A stretch of DNA of 45,975 nt. It comes from Candidatus Levybacteria bacterium RBG_16_35_11 (lineage in GTDB: Bacteria; Patescibacteriota; Microgenomatia; Levybacterales; UBA12049). Made by a program: the position numbers and the translations under genes. Under the pieces are notes generated by a model. It was not told the origin of the DNA. It was given only the letters and a program-made list of their open reading frames with translations, and did no database searches. Below are positions 32,090-36,843 of this stretch, one piece after another. The stretch covers positions 72,741 to 118,715 of the forward strand of contig MFNH01000040.1 in assembly GCA_001781995.1 (NCBI GenBank), written 5' to 3'. Numbering within the stretch: the stretch's first letter is position 1; each line of letters starts with the position of its first letter.

Positions 32090-32132
32090 AATATCTGCAA
32101 TACAGAGCTTAATCTGAGAATAACCATTGGCT

Positions 32133-34391
32133 ATGAAACATCCTAAGTTATCAATAATTATCGTTAACTATAAAGTAAAAAAAGAACTTTTTAACTGCAT
32201 TCGCTCGATAATTAAATCAAAACCGAAAGTTAGCTACGAAATTATTGTTGTTGATAACGATGAAAAGAAAACAATCGAGAATAGTTTAAAAAAAAGATTC
32301 AAAAATGTAAGGTATATAGGAAATCCCGTTAATAGCGGTTTTGGAACGGGAAATAATCTTGGAACAAAAAATGCTAGGGGAGAGTATCTTTTTTTTCTTA
32401 ATCCCGATACCCTAGTTGAAAGAAACGCAATTGACAATCTTATAAGATCAATAAAAAATGACAAAAAAACAGGAGTTGCCTCTCCCCTACTATTAGACAA
32501 AAATAGGGGAGTGTATCCCCTTCAAGGAACTCTTGAACTTACTCCAGTAAGGGCAATTTTTGGACTATCATTTATAAACAAAATTTTCCCCAATAACCCG
32601 ATTTCTAAAAAATATTGGCAAAAAAATTGGGACAAGAGCAAAGATAAAAATGTAGACGTAGTTCCTGGAACTGCTTTGATGATTAAGAAGGATTTATTTG
32701 AAAGAGTCAGTGGATTTGACGAAAAGTTTTTTCTTTATTTTGAGGAATTCGATTTATGCAATCGGATTAAGGATTTGGGATTTGAAATAAAAATTATCGC
32801 ATCCTCTAAGGTTGTTCACTTATGGGAAAGGAGCACAAAAAAAAGAGAAGACATTAAAAAAATATTTGCAAGAAGCAAGTTTTACTATTTCAAGAAAAAT
32901 TACGGATTTTTAAACGCTCTGGCCGTTTCTTTTCTTACAGAGACCACTAAGGAAAAATTTTTACTATTTTTCATATTCATTTTGGGAGTTTTCTTGCGAT
33001 TCTACAAATTAGATCAGTTGATGATTTTCATTGCTGATCAGGGGTGGTTTTATCTTTCCGCAAGGGATCTATTGGTTAATCATTCAATTCCACTCCTGGG
33101 TGTTCCCTCGTCTGTTGTTTGGCTAAAACAGGGTCCTCTTGGTACCTATCTTATAGCACTCTCGTTATATTTTGGAAAATTTCATCCTATATCTCCTGCC
33201 GTATTCTTTTCCGCCTTGGATAGCTTAACCATTCTATTAATATTTTACATAAGTAAAAAATGGATAAATGAAAGATCAGCTCTTTTTGCATCTGCTTTTT
33301 ATGCAACCTCGCCGTTAATTCTGGTAATGAGTAGGATGCCTTATCATACAAGTGCGATACCTTTCTTTGCCTGTTTATTCTTCATTATATTGGGAAGCAA
33401 AAAGAACTATTTAAATCTTTTCTTCTTGTTTTTTATTTTAGGGTTGTTGATTCAACTAGAGCTGTCAAATTCCGTGCTTCTAGTATTGCTTTTAATTTAC
33501 ATTTTGTTTAAAAAAATAAAAATTTCTAAAGCAAAAGTTTATCTCTCCACTTTCGGGCTTATTATTGGTCTTTTACCATTTATAATTTATGACTTTTCAC
33601 ATAGGTTTATTCAGACCGTTGGTCTTCCCTTATGGATAATAAACAGGGTCAGGCTTTTTTTGGGGCTTACAATTTCCGGAAATAGCACGACACACAATTT
33701 CCCCATAGCCTTAACAACAGTAAGGGATCAGCTGGCACAAATAATCTTTCCCTTTTCGCTAACATTTTTTTATTTCATATTAATACTTTTACTAGTTTCA
33801 TTATTTATGAAACGTCGGGAAATTATAGAAAGCAAAATTTTCCTTATAGCCCTTTGGTTCTTTGTTCCGTTATTTGGTTTTTTGATTCACGCAGCTCCGG
33901 GTATGGCGTATTTTCCACTTATTTTTCCCGCTGTCTGCCTTTTAATAGGTTTTTGTCTTGATTTTTATTCTAAATTTAATAAACCGCTAGTCATTTTGGT
34001 TTTCTTGGTGATTCTTTTTGTTAATGTTTTCAACATAGTTAAATCAGATTATTTTATTTGGACGAATAAGTCGGTTAGGATGCCACCGAATAATTATGGC
34101 TTTGGTCCTACATACTTAATTTTCAATGACTTATCAAAAAAAATCGTTAGTGATTCCCAAAAAAGAAACTTTAATGTTAAAGGCGGAGGGTTTTTGTCTA
34201 AATACGAGTCGGGAATTGACAATTTTAAGTATTTAATCTTAATTAATGGTGGGAAGATTGACTACAATTCGTCCTTAAAATATGTTATCTACGCAAAGGA
34301 TGATGTTGAAAGAGAGAAGGCTGTGTCCAACTCTAAAAATGTTCTTTTTAAAAGCAATTATTTTTATATTTATAAGCAAGTGAGTGAATAA
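32133..34391 (+). CDS. GT2 fused to a GT-C-like membrane glycosyltransferase
   Basis: A 752-aa two-module protein. Residues about 1-260 are a rhamnosyltransferase-like GT2: KLSIIIVNYKVKKELFNCI, DNDEKKTIENSL, NSGFGTGNNLGTKNARGEYL and FLNPDTLVERN (DxD position), then WERSTKKRED. From about 275 come ten or more membrane helices resembling PMT_2/ArnT-like GT-C proteins, with ADQGWFYLSARDLL in the first loop. A short soluble tail follows. I chose ATG 32133 over TTG 32127. One chain could load a sugar in the cytoplasm and transfer another outside. No frameshift or linker gap is seen, so the fusion looks genuine. Confidence 0.85.
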   Translation: MKHPKLSIIIVNYKVKKELFNCIRSIIKSKPKVSYEIIVVDNDEKKTIENSLKKRFKNVRYIGNPVNSGFGTGNNLGTKNARGEYLFFLNPDTLVERNAIDNLIRSIKNDKKTGVASPLLLDKNRGVYPLQGTLELTPVRAIFGLSFINKIFPNNPISKKYWQKNWDKSKDKNVDVVPGTALMIKKDLFERVSGFDEKFFLYFEEFDLCNRIKDLGFEIKIIASSKVVHLWERSTKKREDIKKIFARSKFYYFKKNYGFLNALAVSFLTETTKEKFLLFFIFILGVFLRFYKLDQLMIFIADQGWFYLSARDLLVNHSIPLLGVPSSVVWLKQGPLGTYLIALSLYFGKFHPISPAVFFSALDSLTILLIFYISKKWINERSALFASAFYATSPLILVMSRMPYHTSAIPFFACLFFIILGSKKNYLNLFFLFFILGLLIQLELSNSVLLVLLLIYILFKKIKISKAKVYLSTFGLIIGLLPFIIYDFSHRFIQTVGLPLWIINRVRLFLGLTISGNSTTHNFPIALTTVRDQLAQIIFPFSLTFFYFILILLLVSLFMKRREIIESKIFLIALWFFVPLFGFLIHAAPGMAYFPLIFPAVCLLIGFCLDFYSKFNKPLVILVFLVILFVNVFNIVKSDYFIWTNKSVRMPPNNYGFGPTYLIFNDLSKKIVSDSQKRNFNVKGGGFLSKYESGIDNFKYLILINGGKIDYNSSLKYVIYAKDDVEREKAVSNSKNVLFKSNYFYIYKQVSE

Positions 34392-34405: not shown

Positions 34406-35161
34406 ATGAGCGACGTAACAGCGGTGATAATTACCAAAAACGAAGAAAAAAACATTGTGGATTGCCTGGAGACTTTAAAATGGGTTAAGCAAATAATAGT
34501 CATTGATGATTTTTCAGACGATCGAACAGCTGATGTTGCAAGAATTAACGGAGCAGAGGTTTTTAAACATACACTTGGACGGGATTTTTCAAAACAGAGA
34601 AACTTTGCTCTAGCTAAATGTAAGACTGACTGGGTATTGTTTATAGACGCGGACGAAAGGGTTTCAGAAAAACTAAAAAAAGAAATAGAATATCGACTAA
34701 GTGAGAGTAAAAACACCAATGGCTTTATTTTCAATAGAAAAGACATATTATGGGGAAGAACTCTAAACCATGGCGAAATGGGAAAGGTAAAATTATTAAG
34801 ACTGGCAAAAAGAGAATCAGGTGAGTGGCAAGGAAAAGTTCATGAGGCATGGAAGATTAATGGAAATGTAAAGGAGCTTAAAAACCCTCTAATTCACTAC
34901 CCACATCAGAACATTACGACATTATTTAGGGAAATAAATTTTTATACAAGTATAAGGGCTGAGGAACTGAGGAATAAAAACTTAGAATCTTCTTTGTATC
35001 AGATTATTTTTTACCCGGCTGGTAAATTTATTATGAATTATTTTATTAGATTAGGCTTCTTAGACGGGATACCGGGACTTATAATGGCGAATGCAATGAG
35101 TATGCACTCATTCCTCGTAAGAGGTAAGCTATGGTTGTCAAAAAGAAACAATCAAAAATAG
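34406..35161 (+). CDS. WaaE/KdtX-like family 2 glycosyltransferase
   Basis: A GT2 of 251 aa resembling lipopolysaccharide core beta-glucosyltransferase WaaE. It has TAVIITKNEEKNIVDCLETLKWV, IVIDDFSDDRTADVA, GRDFSKQRNFAL, DWVLFIDADERVSEKL (intact DxD) and GEWQGKVHEAWKI. It has no clear membrane domain, only a short hydrophobic C-terminal region. No LPS-core genes are present, so it is better read as a generic surface-glycan transferase. A 38-codon membrane peptide gene overlaps its last 31 bases. Confidence 0.9.
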   Translation: MSDVTAVIITKNEEKNIVDCLETLKWVKQIIVIDDFSDDRTADVARINGAEVFKHTLGRDFSKQRNFALAKCKTDWVLFIDADERVSEKLKKEIEYRLSESKNTNGFIFNRKDILWGRTLNHGEMGKVKLLRLAKRESGEWQGKVHEAWKINGNVKELKNPLIHYPHQNITTLFREINFYTSIRAEELRNKNLESSLYQIIFYPAGKFIMNYFIRLGFLDGIPGLIMANAMSMHSFLVRGKLWLSKRNNQK

Positions 35162-35247
35162 AAATTATTTTCTTAGTCTGGTCGATTGCTATTCTCGTTT
35201 ATTATATTTATTCCCTACTTTGCAGAGGGGGAATTTGTTTTGGATAA
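35131..35247 (+). CDS. Small single-pass membrane peptide, 38 aa
   Basis: A short gene starting at ATG 35131 with GAGGT (35121-35125) at ideal spacing. It encodes a Lys-rich N-terminus (MVVKKKQSK), one hydrophobic helix (about residues 11-30, IEIIFLVWSIAILVYYIYSL) and a CRGGICFG tail with two cysteines. It overlaps the end of the WaaE-like GT2 and stops 3 nt before the next gene, exactly filling what would otherwise be an 89-bp gap. The positive-inside pattern predicts the N-terminus in the cytoplasm and the cysteines outside. The family is unknown; it may help the adjacent membrane glycosyltransferase. Confidence 0.65.
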   Translation: MVVKKKQSKIEIIFLVWSIAILVYYIYSLLCRGGICFG

Positions 35248-35250
35248 ACT

Positions 35251-36843
35251 ATGTTTTCCTTTGCTTTTTTAGTTGGAATTTATTCATTTGGGATATTAGC
35301 TCTTGGCATTTCAACACAGCTACATAGAGAAAATGTTTTAGCGATTTCCATAATTTTTCTCTTGACCTTAATAGTCTTACTACTTAAGCTATTCAAAAAA
35401 ACGGAATTTAAGAGAGAAATTAAAAAAGCATTGCGCCCAAAGTTAAATCTGACTATTTTTATACTTATTATTTTTCAGGCGACTGTAAATCTGATAGGAG
35501 TTTTAGGCCCGGAAATTTCTTTTGATGCCCTCTGGTACCATTTGACATTACCAAAAATATTCCTTCAAAACCATGCCATATTTCATATTCCTGGTGGATT
35601 ACTATACTATTCAGATCTGCCAAAATTAGCTGAAACTTTATATATTCCTGCGTTATCTTCATCAGACGAAATTTTGGCAAAATTGATCCATTTCTTATTT
35701 GGGATTTTTTCAGCGTATGCTACCTACAAAATTTCCAGAAAATATTTAGATTATAAATATTCTCTTTTGGCTGTTCTCATTTTTTATTCCAACTTAGTTG
35801 TTGGTTGGCTTTCAATATCTGGTTATGTAGACTTAGTAAGGACATTTTTTGAAATAATCGCATTTTGGGCTTTCTTGGAATGGGTAGAAACGAAAAAAAT
35901 AAACTGGCTAATTGAGTCAGGGATTTTTGTTGGACTTTCCATCTCAACGAAACTCACAGGATTCATATCTTTATTTATTTACGTTTTTTTCCTGTTGTAT
36001 GTCTTAAGGAAAAAAGGAATTGCTGATAAACTGAAAAAACTTTTTACATTTATTGCCCTTTCAATAATTATTCCTCTTCCATATTTTGTTTTGTCATTCC
36101 TTAATACCGGTAACCCTATTTTTCCACTTTTTTCCAAGATATTGCCCTTAAACACACAATTAAACTTCCTAAAGTCTTTAAAAGATTCTTTTATACTATT
36201 AACCTCATCTCCTGATCCAATATCGCCTATTTATTTAATATCATTACCCTTAATAGTAATTTTCTTTAAAAAAATCAGTTTTTCCGCAAAGATAATTATT
36301 ACTTACTGTCTTTCTGCCTTCGTTTTGGTAATTTTTCTGCCGATAGGGGATAAAGCCAGATTCTTTCTACCCTATCTTCCTGCACTGTCTATTGGAATAA
36401 CCATTGTTTTTTCGAAGCTTGATAAAAGCACTATTCAAAAAACAGTATTTTTTGCTGCAATAATATTGTCGTTTATTTCAATAGGTTATCGCTTGGCCGC
36501 AAACTATAAATACATACCATATTTATTTGAAAGTGAAACTAAAGCAGAGTTTTTAGCAAAAAACCTTAATTTCTCATTTGGGGATTTTTACGACACAGAC
36601 GGTTTTTTAGGCAAAAAAATAAACTCAAGTGACAAAGCTTTGCTTTTTGGTTTTCATAACCTTTATTACATAAATTTCCCTTTCATCGACAGCAGCTTTG
36701 TAAAAAAAGGTGATAGTTTTAATTACATTCTCACGCAGAACTCTGAAATCCCTGATCAGTTTAAATATTGGCGATTGGTTTATTCAAACCCTTTGACAAA
36801 AGTTAATCTTTATTCATTAGGAGGCATTTGGTGGGTATATTAG
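35251..36843 (+). CDS. GT-C-like membrane glycosyltransferase, 530 aa
   Basis: A polytopic membrane protein with about 11-12 helices and a short soluble C-terminus. The first long loop has GPEISFDALWYHLTLPKIFL, giving the acidic residue and position expected for a GT-C enzyme, then GGLLYYSDLPKLAETLY. It later has GLSISTKLTGFISL, a pattern common in DUF-type PMT relatives. Its start is 3 nt after the 38-aa peptide gene, and its end overlaps the O-antigen ligase-like gene by 13 nt. Sugar and acceptor are unknown; polyprenyl-phosphate donor use is inferred from the fold. Confidence 0.78.
   Translation: MFSFAFLVGIYSFGILALGISTQLHRENVLAISIIFLLTLIVLLLKLFKKTEFKREIKKALRPKLNLTIFILIIFQATVNLIGVLGPEISFDALWYHLTLPKIFLQNHAIFHIPGGLLYYSDLPKLAETLYIPALSSSDEILAKLIHFLFGIFSAYATYKISRKYLDYKYSLLAVLIFYSNLVVGWLSISGYVDLVRTFFEIIAFWAFLEWVETKKINWLIESGIFVGLSISTKLTGFISLFIYVFFLLYVLRKKGIADKLKKLFTFIALSIIIPLPYFVLSFLNTGNPIFPLFSKILPLNTQLNFLKSLKDSFILLTSSPDPISPIYLISLPLIVIFFKKISFSAKIIITYCLSAFVLVIFLPIGDKARFFLPYLPALSIGITIVFSKLDKSTIQKTVFFAAIILSFISIGYRLAANYKYIPYLFESETKAEFLAKNLNFSFGDFYDTDGFLGKKINSSDKALLFGFHNLYYINFPFIDSSFVKKGDSFNYILTQNSEIPDQFKYWRLVYSNPLTKVNLYSLGGIWWVY

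Follow-up and report, generated by a model that had tools for sequence, protein, structure and literature searches.

The question raised by this locus is whether a short open reading frame at 35131-35247, lying between two glycosyltransferase genes, is a gene at all and, if so, which of its neighbours its product serves. The window, meaning the whole stretch of 45,975 nucleotides that was analysed, comes from a genome of 1.23 Mb in 72 contigs and carries a surface-polysaccharide cluster in the order flippase, GT4, DegT aminotransferase, GT2-PMT fusion, GT2, peptide, PMT_2 and Wzy_C ligase. Also in the window, a 754-aa ORF at 32127-34391 combines a family-2 glycosyltransferase domain at its N-terminus with a membrane part that is PMT_2-like. 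The features discussed below are as follows.

34406..35161, + strand: upstream family-2 glycosyltransferase gene, GT2 (Pfam match, PF00535)
35120..35125, + strand: Shine-Dalgarno-like site AGAGGT, identical with GT2 codons for Arg-Gly (sequence; the GT2 motif is also found in peptide-less loci)
35131..35247, + strand: gene for a 38-aa single-span membrane microprotein (translation, profile matches, frame-specific conservation)
35131..35161, + strand: start of the peptide ORF, shared with the 3' end of GT2 in a different frame (ORF coordinates)
35164..35220, + strand: predicted membrane helix, residues 12-30 (hydropathy; conservation)
35179-35181, + strand: conserved Trp17 (conservation)
35203-35205, + strand: conserved Tyr25 (conservation)
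35221..35238, + strand: C-R-G-G-I-C tail (Cys pair all-or-none in the peptide family)
35221-35223, + strand: Cys31 of the tail
35236-35238, + strand: Cys36 of the tail
35251..36843, + strand: downstream PMT_2 gene (Pfam match, PF13231), a GT-C type membrane glycosyltransferase and proposed partner

Layout of the locus

The plus-strand frame at 35131-35247 translates as MVVKKKQSKIEIIFLVWSIAILVYYIYSLLCRGGICFG* (38 aa). The original prediction described a membrane peptide with one hydrophobic helix and a basic N-terminus, and our analysis bears this out, since the product has a single hydrophobic stretch (19-residue Kyte-Doolittle maximum of 2.33, residues 12-30) and a Lys-rich start. The two-cysteine tail is likewise present (Cys31 and Cys36), although in the family an overlap with the PMT start usually accounts for the second cysteine. 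The reading frame had also been said to fill exactly the gap between its neighbours; it exists at that position, but its first 31 nt lie within the GT2 gene and 3 nt separate its stop from the PMT ATG (35251), the true GT2-PMT gap being 35162-35250. Similarly, AGAGGT does stand 5 nt before the peptide ATG, as expected of what had been called an ideal Shine-Dalgarno, but it consists of the GT2 codons AGA GGT within the conserved C-terminal motif SFLVRGKLW. Because this motif also occurs in loci without the peptide (L010, L017), the site is not independent evidence. The 38-aa ORF alone is unremarkable as well, as several ORFs of 31-42 aa occur nearby in the AT-rich DNA of the window.

For most relatives, the final peptide codons contain the PMT ATG in constant phase, a typical overlap being ...TGC AGG GGA GGT ATA TGT TT..., in which PMT starts with ATG TTT. 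To a large extent, then, it is the PMT start that sets the I-C-F/L end of the peptide. The window has lost this overlap, the peptide stop TAA being followed by ACT and then ATG. We rejected the idea that the peptide is a PMT N-terminus severed by a stop codon, because the peptide frame differs from the PMT frame in most relatives and PMT begins with its own conserved Met-Phe.

Coding status and conservation

Homologues were first spotted between orthologous GT2 and PMT genes and then collected by profile search, which gave 48 distinct sequences of 29-50 aa (median 36 aa; one member reads as 50 aa), all without stops, and a few more later. A gapless alignment of the 48, with positions counted from the Trp, revealed the common pattern W-x7-Y-x3-L-x-C-[RK]-x3-C, with Tyr at +8 in 47/48, Leu at +12 in 40/48, Cys at +14 in 37/48 and Arg or Lys at +15 in 47/48; the Trp itself is present in 37/48 and is otherwise F, Y or, once, S. 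Over a block of 17 aligned codons in the middle helix, which avoids the usual overlaps with GT2 and PMT, mean pairwise BLOSUM62 was 32.0 in the peptide frame versus -1.4 and -1.2 in the other two, and stops were present in 36/48 and 13/48 sequences in the alternative frames versus 0/48 in the peptide frame. Within-sequence amino-acid shuffles reached at most 5.8, compared with 33.5 for the real sequences (18 codons), and the conservation therefore exceeds shared hydrophobicity. Among the codon positions, the second showed the highest identity (0.69) and the third the lowest (0.38), as in a hydrophobic helix under constraint. Conservation was also periodic along the helix, with p=0.0006 for 85-115 degrees, a range picked after the signal was seen to peak at 90 degrees, and p=0.013 over all angles; for exactly 100 degrees the helix moment fell short of significance (p=0.11).

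Since the conservation is frame-specific, a chance ORF is ruled out, and 35131-35247 is a protein-coding gene. The check proposed with the original prediction, namely conservation in relatives, with stops or frameshifts beside intact flanking genes as the outcome that would speak against a gene, came out in its favour: at 38-52% identity of the flanking PMT the same frame is stop-free, the residue pattern is kept at the protein level, and no such interruption was seen in the relatives. It is hardly credible that there is no gene here and that an open stretch merely appears conserved through the overlapping GT2 and PMT ends; in many relatives both peptide ends do lie within conserved genes, but the overlap-free middle-helix block, which holds the most conserved residues (W, Y and L), is the most conserved part, and the pattern is kept where neither neighbour overlaps the peptide (L115, L236).

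Searches of Pfam, NCBIfam and PDB gave no family match for the peptide family, no NCBIfam family matched the window peptide at E<=1, and no account of such a peptide was found in the open-access literature. The family, absent from the searched libraries, is widely conserved in uncultured Patescibacteria (dozens of genomes).

Distribution and linkage to PMT

In a survey of 374 genomes of the class (thresholds of E<=1e-4 for the peptide and E<=1e-20 for PMT), the peptide was matched in 39, all of them (39/39) among the 67 PMT-bearing genomes, and in 0/307 genomes without PMT. Three slightly weaker or stray matches, in G061, G291 and G470, proved on inspection to be antisense or signal-anchor-like. 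Outside the class, a 380-genome sample of the phylum yielded no convincing match, only chance-level ones. An order-level tally of 82 genomes gave about 40 with the peptide, 8 with PMT but without the peptide, and 5 that contig ends left undecidable; in some 11-12 PMT-bearing relatives the peptide was undetectable anywhere in the genome.

The peptide-PMT pair occurs without GT2 upstream in L129, L131, L224, L225 and L227, following SIMPL or RNase Y genes in the last three. Because the pair is thus found outside the polysaccharide operon too, PMT rather than the upstream GT2 appears to be the partner. This partnership with the downstream enzyme, the wide spread of the family, and the shaping of both the Shine-Dalgarno and the second cysteine by overlapping genes were missed by the original prediction. 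In several genomes the peptide gene lies one or two genes from PMT and adjoins another membrane protein, and the gene that follows in L234, L235 and L240 codes for some other membrane protein (no curated family, weak PMT_2, GT87).

The cysteine pair

The two cysteines are all-or-none among the 48 homologues, both being present in 37, one in 0 and neither in 11 (p=4e-11, kinship uncorrected); five further members either have both (L125, the partial L143, and L274) or neither (L275, L286). Members without the cysteines occur in separate parts of the PMT tree, with about 10 changes in the best fit and at least 3 forced by well-supported branches, and the loss is polyphyletic. The first Cys precedes the PMT start, and the second usually overlaps PMT ATG-T, where it was discounted as independent evidence; the pair was kept as a signal because the first Cys is non-overlapping and is lost together with the second. 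The joint loss points to a working pair, which most simply may form a disulfide. VKOR was present in 19/34 genomes with the cysteines versus 2/11 without (p=0.04, kinship uncorrected), a weak link, and VKOR had no match in the genome of the window. Counts of PMT cysteines made no specific PMT cysteine partner evident.

Residue 409 of PMT

When PMT columns were compared between genomes with and without the peptide, one column stood out, residue 409 in window numbering, just before a Y-R-x-x-A-N segment. Phe occupies it in 9/12 peptide-less versus 2/49 peptide-bearing PMTs (family-wise p=0.001 by label permutation); one of the 12, G068, lies at a contig end and is perhaps not peptide-less, and the count without it is 9/11. 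On the tree the residue changes 9 times, and 200 pairings gave 0 independent pairs against the association, the signal resting on only 5 well-supported independent pairs. Among genomes not included in that scan, G171 (no peptide, F) and G148 (peptide, I) agree with the association, whereas G205 (doubtful peptide, F) is a misfit, and the distant f29 group, with an in-frame GT2-like segment ahead of PMT, is mixed (4/8 F). With moderate confidence, we suggest that Phe409 in peptide-less PMTs compensates at a helix contact. An AlphaFold model of PMT from the single sequence had a mean pLDDT of 41 and was unusable.

Possible role of the microprotein

Taken together, the homologues, the co-occurrence and paired movement with PMT, the gene overlap, the helical periodicity, residue 409 and the Cys pair favour an accessory role for the microprotein, as a co-translated single-pass subunit of the downstream-encoded PMT_2/GT-C glycosyltransferase, a reading to which we assign a probability of roughly 0.55. 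The ribosome would make the peptide and then initiate PMT at once, giving coupled, adjacent synthesis; the peptide helix would insert, probably with the Lys-rich end inside. This orientation is unsure because the end-charge bias is weak (N>C in 20, N<C in 10, equal in 18). The face formed by F-3, W0, I/V4, Y8 and L12 (counted from the Trp) may pack against PMT. The contact would probably be close to the PMT helix that houses residue 409 and leads into the conserved Y-R-x-x-A-N segment. Where the C-terminal Cys pair is present, it would probably be joined by a disulfide, forming a small loop at the surface of the membrane. In such an arrangement the peptide would stabilise or tune PMT and would not be catalytic. 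Counting against a subunit are the 11-12 lineages with a working PMT and no peptide, the occasional position beside other membrane proteins, some of them GT87 or PMT_2 (L234, L235, L240), and, at residue 409, the few pairs, the misfit of G205 and the mixed f29 group. A tentative and rather doubtful extension is that this undescribed family serves a bacterial GT-C enzyme as its redox-sensitive (Cys-pair) subunit, in which case loss of the peptide would be followed by Phe in the contacting helix and loss of the redox role by loss of both cysteines.

The constant-phase overlap of the PMT ATG with the peptide end in most relatives, and the stop 3 nt before the ATG in the window, would also be expected of a translational coupler or leader, whose translation exposes the PMT ribosome-binding site or supplies the PMT start with ribosomes and whose product is itself minor. 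This seems unlikely, as the most conserved residues (W, Y and L) sit in the middle helix, beyond the overlap, the pattern is kept in loci that place the peptide at a distance from PMT or beside another gene (L115, L232, L236), and some 11-12 PMT genes do without the peptide. A function with another partner, such as that of a general membrane regulator or a companion of other GT-C enzymes of the operon, merely encoded beside PMT, would suit the loci in which the next gene is a different membrane protein (L234, L235, L240) and the one in which the peptide is in frame with a GT87 protein (L223), but the strict co-occurrence with PMT and the association with residue 409 make this quite improbable.

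At the other end of the gene, the peptide start overlaps the GT2 end in one frame in many relatives, with A-AAA-AAA/G runs there in L119, L124 and L135, and GT2 has no membrane helix of its own within its Pfam match, so that a detached membrane anchor or partner of the soluble GT2, possibly also fused to it by -1 frameshifting at A-runs, was considered. We rejected it as improbable too: the window has no such A-run, the peptide persists beside PMT with no GT2 upstream (L129, L131, L224, L225, L227), and GT2 is common where the peptide is absent. The accessory subunit of PMT thus remains our preferred reading.

Comparison with known small subunits

Ost4p is a very small single-span subunit of the eukaryotic oligosaccharyltransferase, and to our knowledge a one-helix subunit on a GT-C enzyme is known only from that complex. 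In the Stt3A-Ost3/6-Ost4 sub-complex, Ost4p associates with the GT-C enzyme Stt3 (PMC5045529). The peptide resembles it in having about the same size (median 36 aa versus about 36 aa), one hydrophobic stretch as its membrane helix and a GT-C glycosyltransferase as proposed partner, but it is bacterial, its gene in most relatives overlaps that of its putative enzyme, and it often has a Cys pair. Sequence similarity to Ost4 was not found, the profile search of PDB chains returning one match, photosystem II protein M, at E=3.4. Small single-helix accessory subunits of bacterial membrane complexes are recognised as a class (PMC12350097). Like these, the peptide is conserved, coding, shorter than 50 aa (apart from the member that reads as 50 aa), single-helix and linked to a larger membrane protein; it differs in that its partner would be a PMT_2 glycosyltransferase and its family is not in Pfam or NCBIfam. 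The window peptide did not match the NCBIfam model NF037932 (bacteriocin-like WGxF protein), which weakly matched 2/38 members (best E=0.0069); the neighbours of the window peptide are glycosyltransferases.

The family, missing from the libraries searched, is widely conserved in Patescibacteria, whose cell-surface glycan enzymes are little studied, and it offers a concrete, if proposed, bacterial example of a GT-C enzyme with a one-helix subunit. It also illustrates that comparative genomics can give a 38-residue protein a partner and a candidate contact residue.

Atypical loci

In L119, L124, L132, L133 and L135, A-AAA-AAA or A-AAA-AAG is present at the GT2 end, where a -1 shift would enter the peptide frame. 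At L223:874-2016 a GT87 protein carries the peptide sequence in frame at its C-terminus; alternatively, a GTG with an upstream AAGG could start the peptide separately. In L226 and L228 (G223 and G197, family f15), PMT is split in two frames downstream of an intact peptide gene, representing either a pseudogene or an assembly error. In L287-L294 (family f29), a segment resembling the GT2 C-terminus (FLDGTAGLFLAYLMAVQS) is in frame at the start of the PMT ORF, so that the two enzymes appear to be fused and there is no intervening peptide gene. Upstream of PMT in L285 there is possibly a very divergent peptide (MQIKQIVLLLFFILAVVIVAHYFSVVACAKFLNQGNPICFWAQTGA), which has two cysteines as well.
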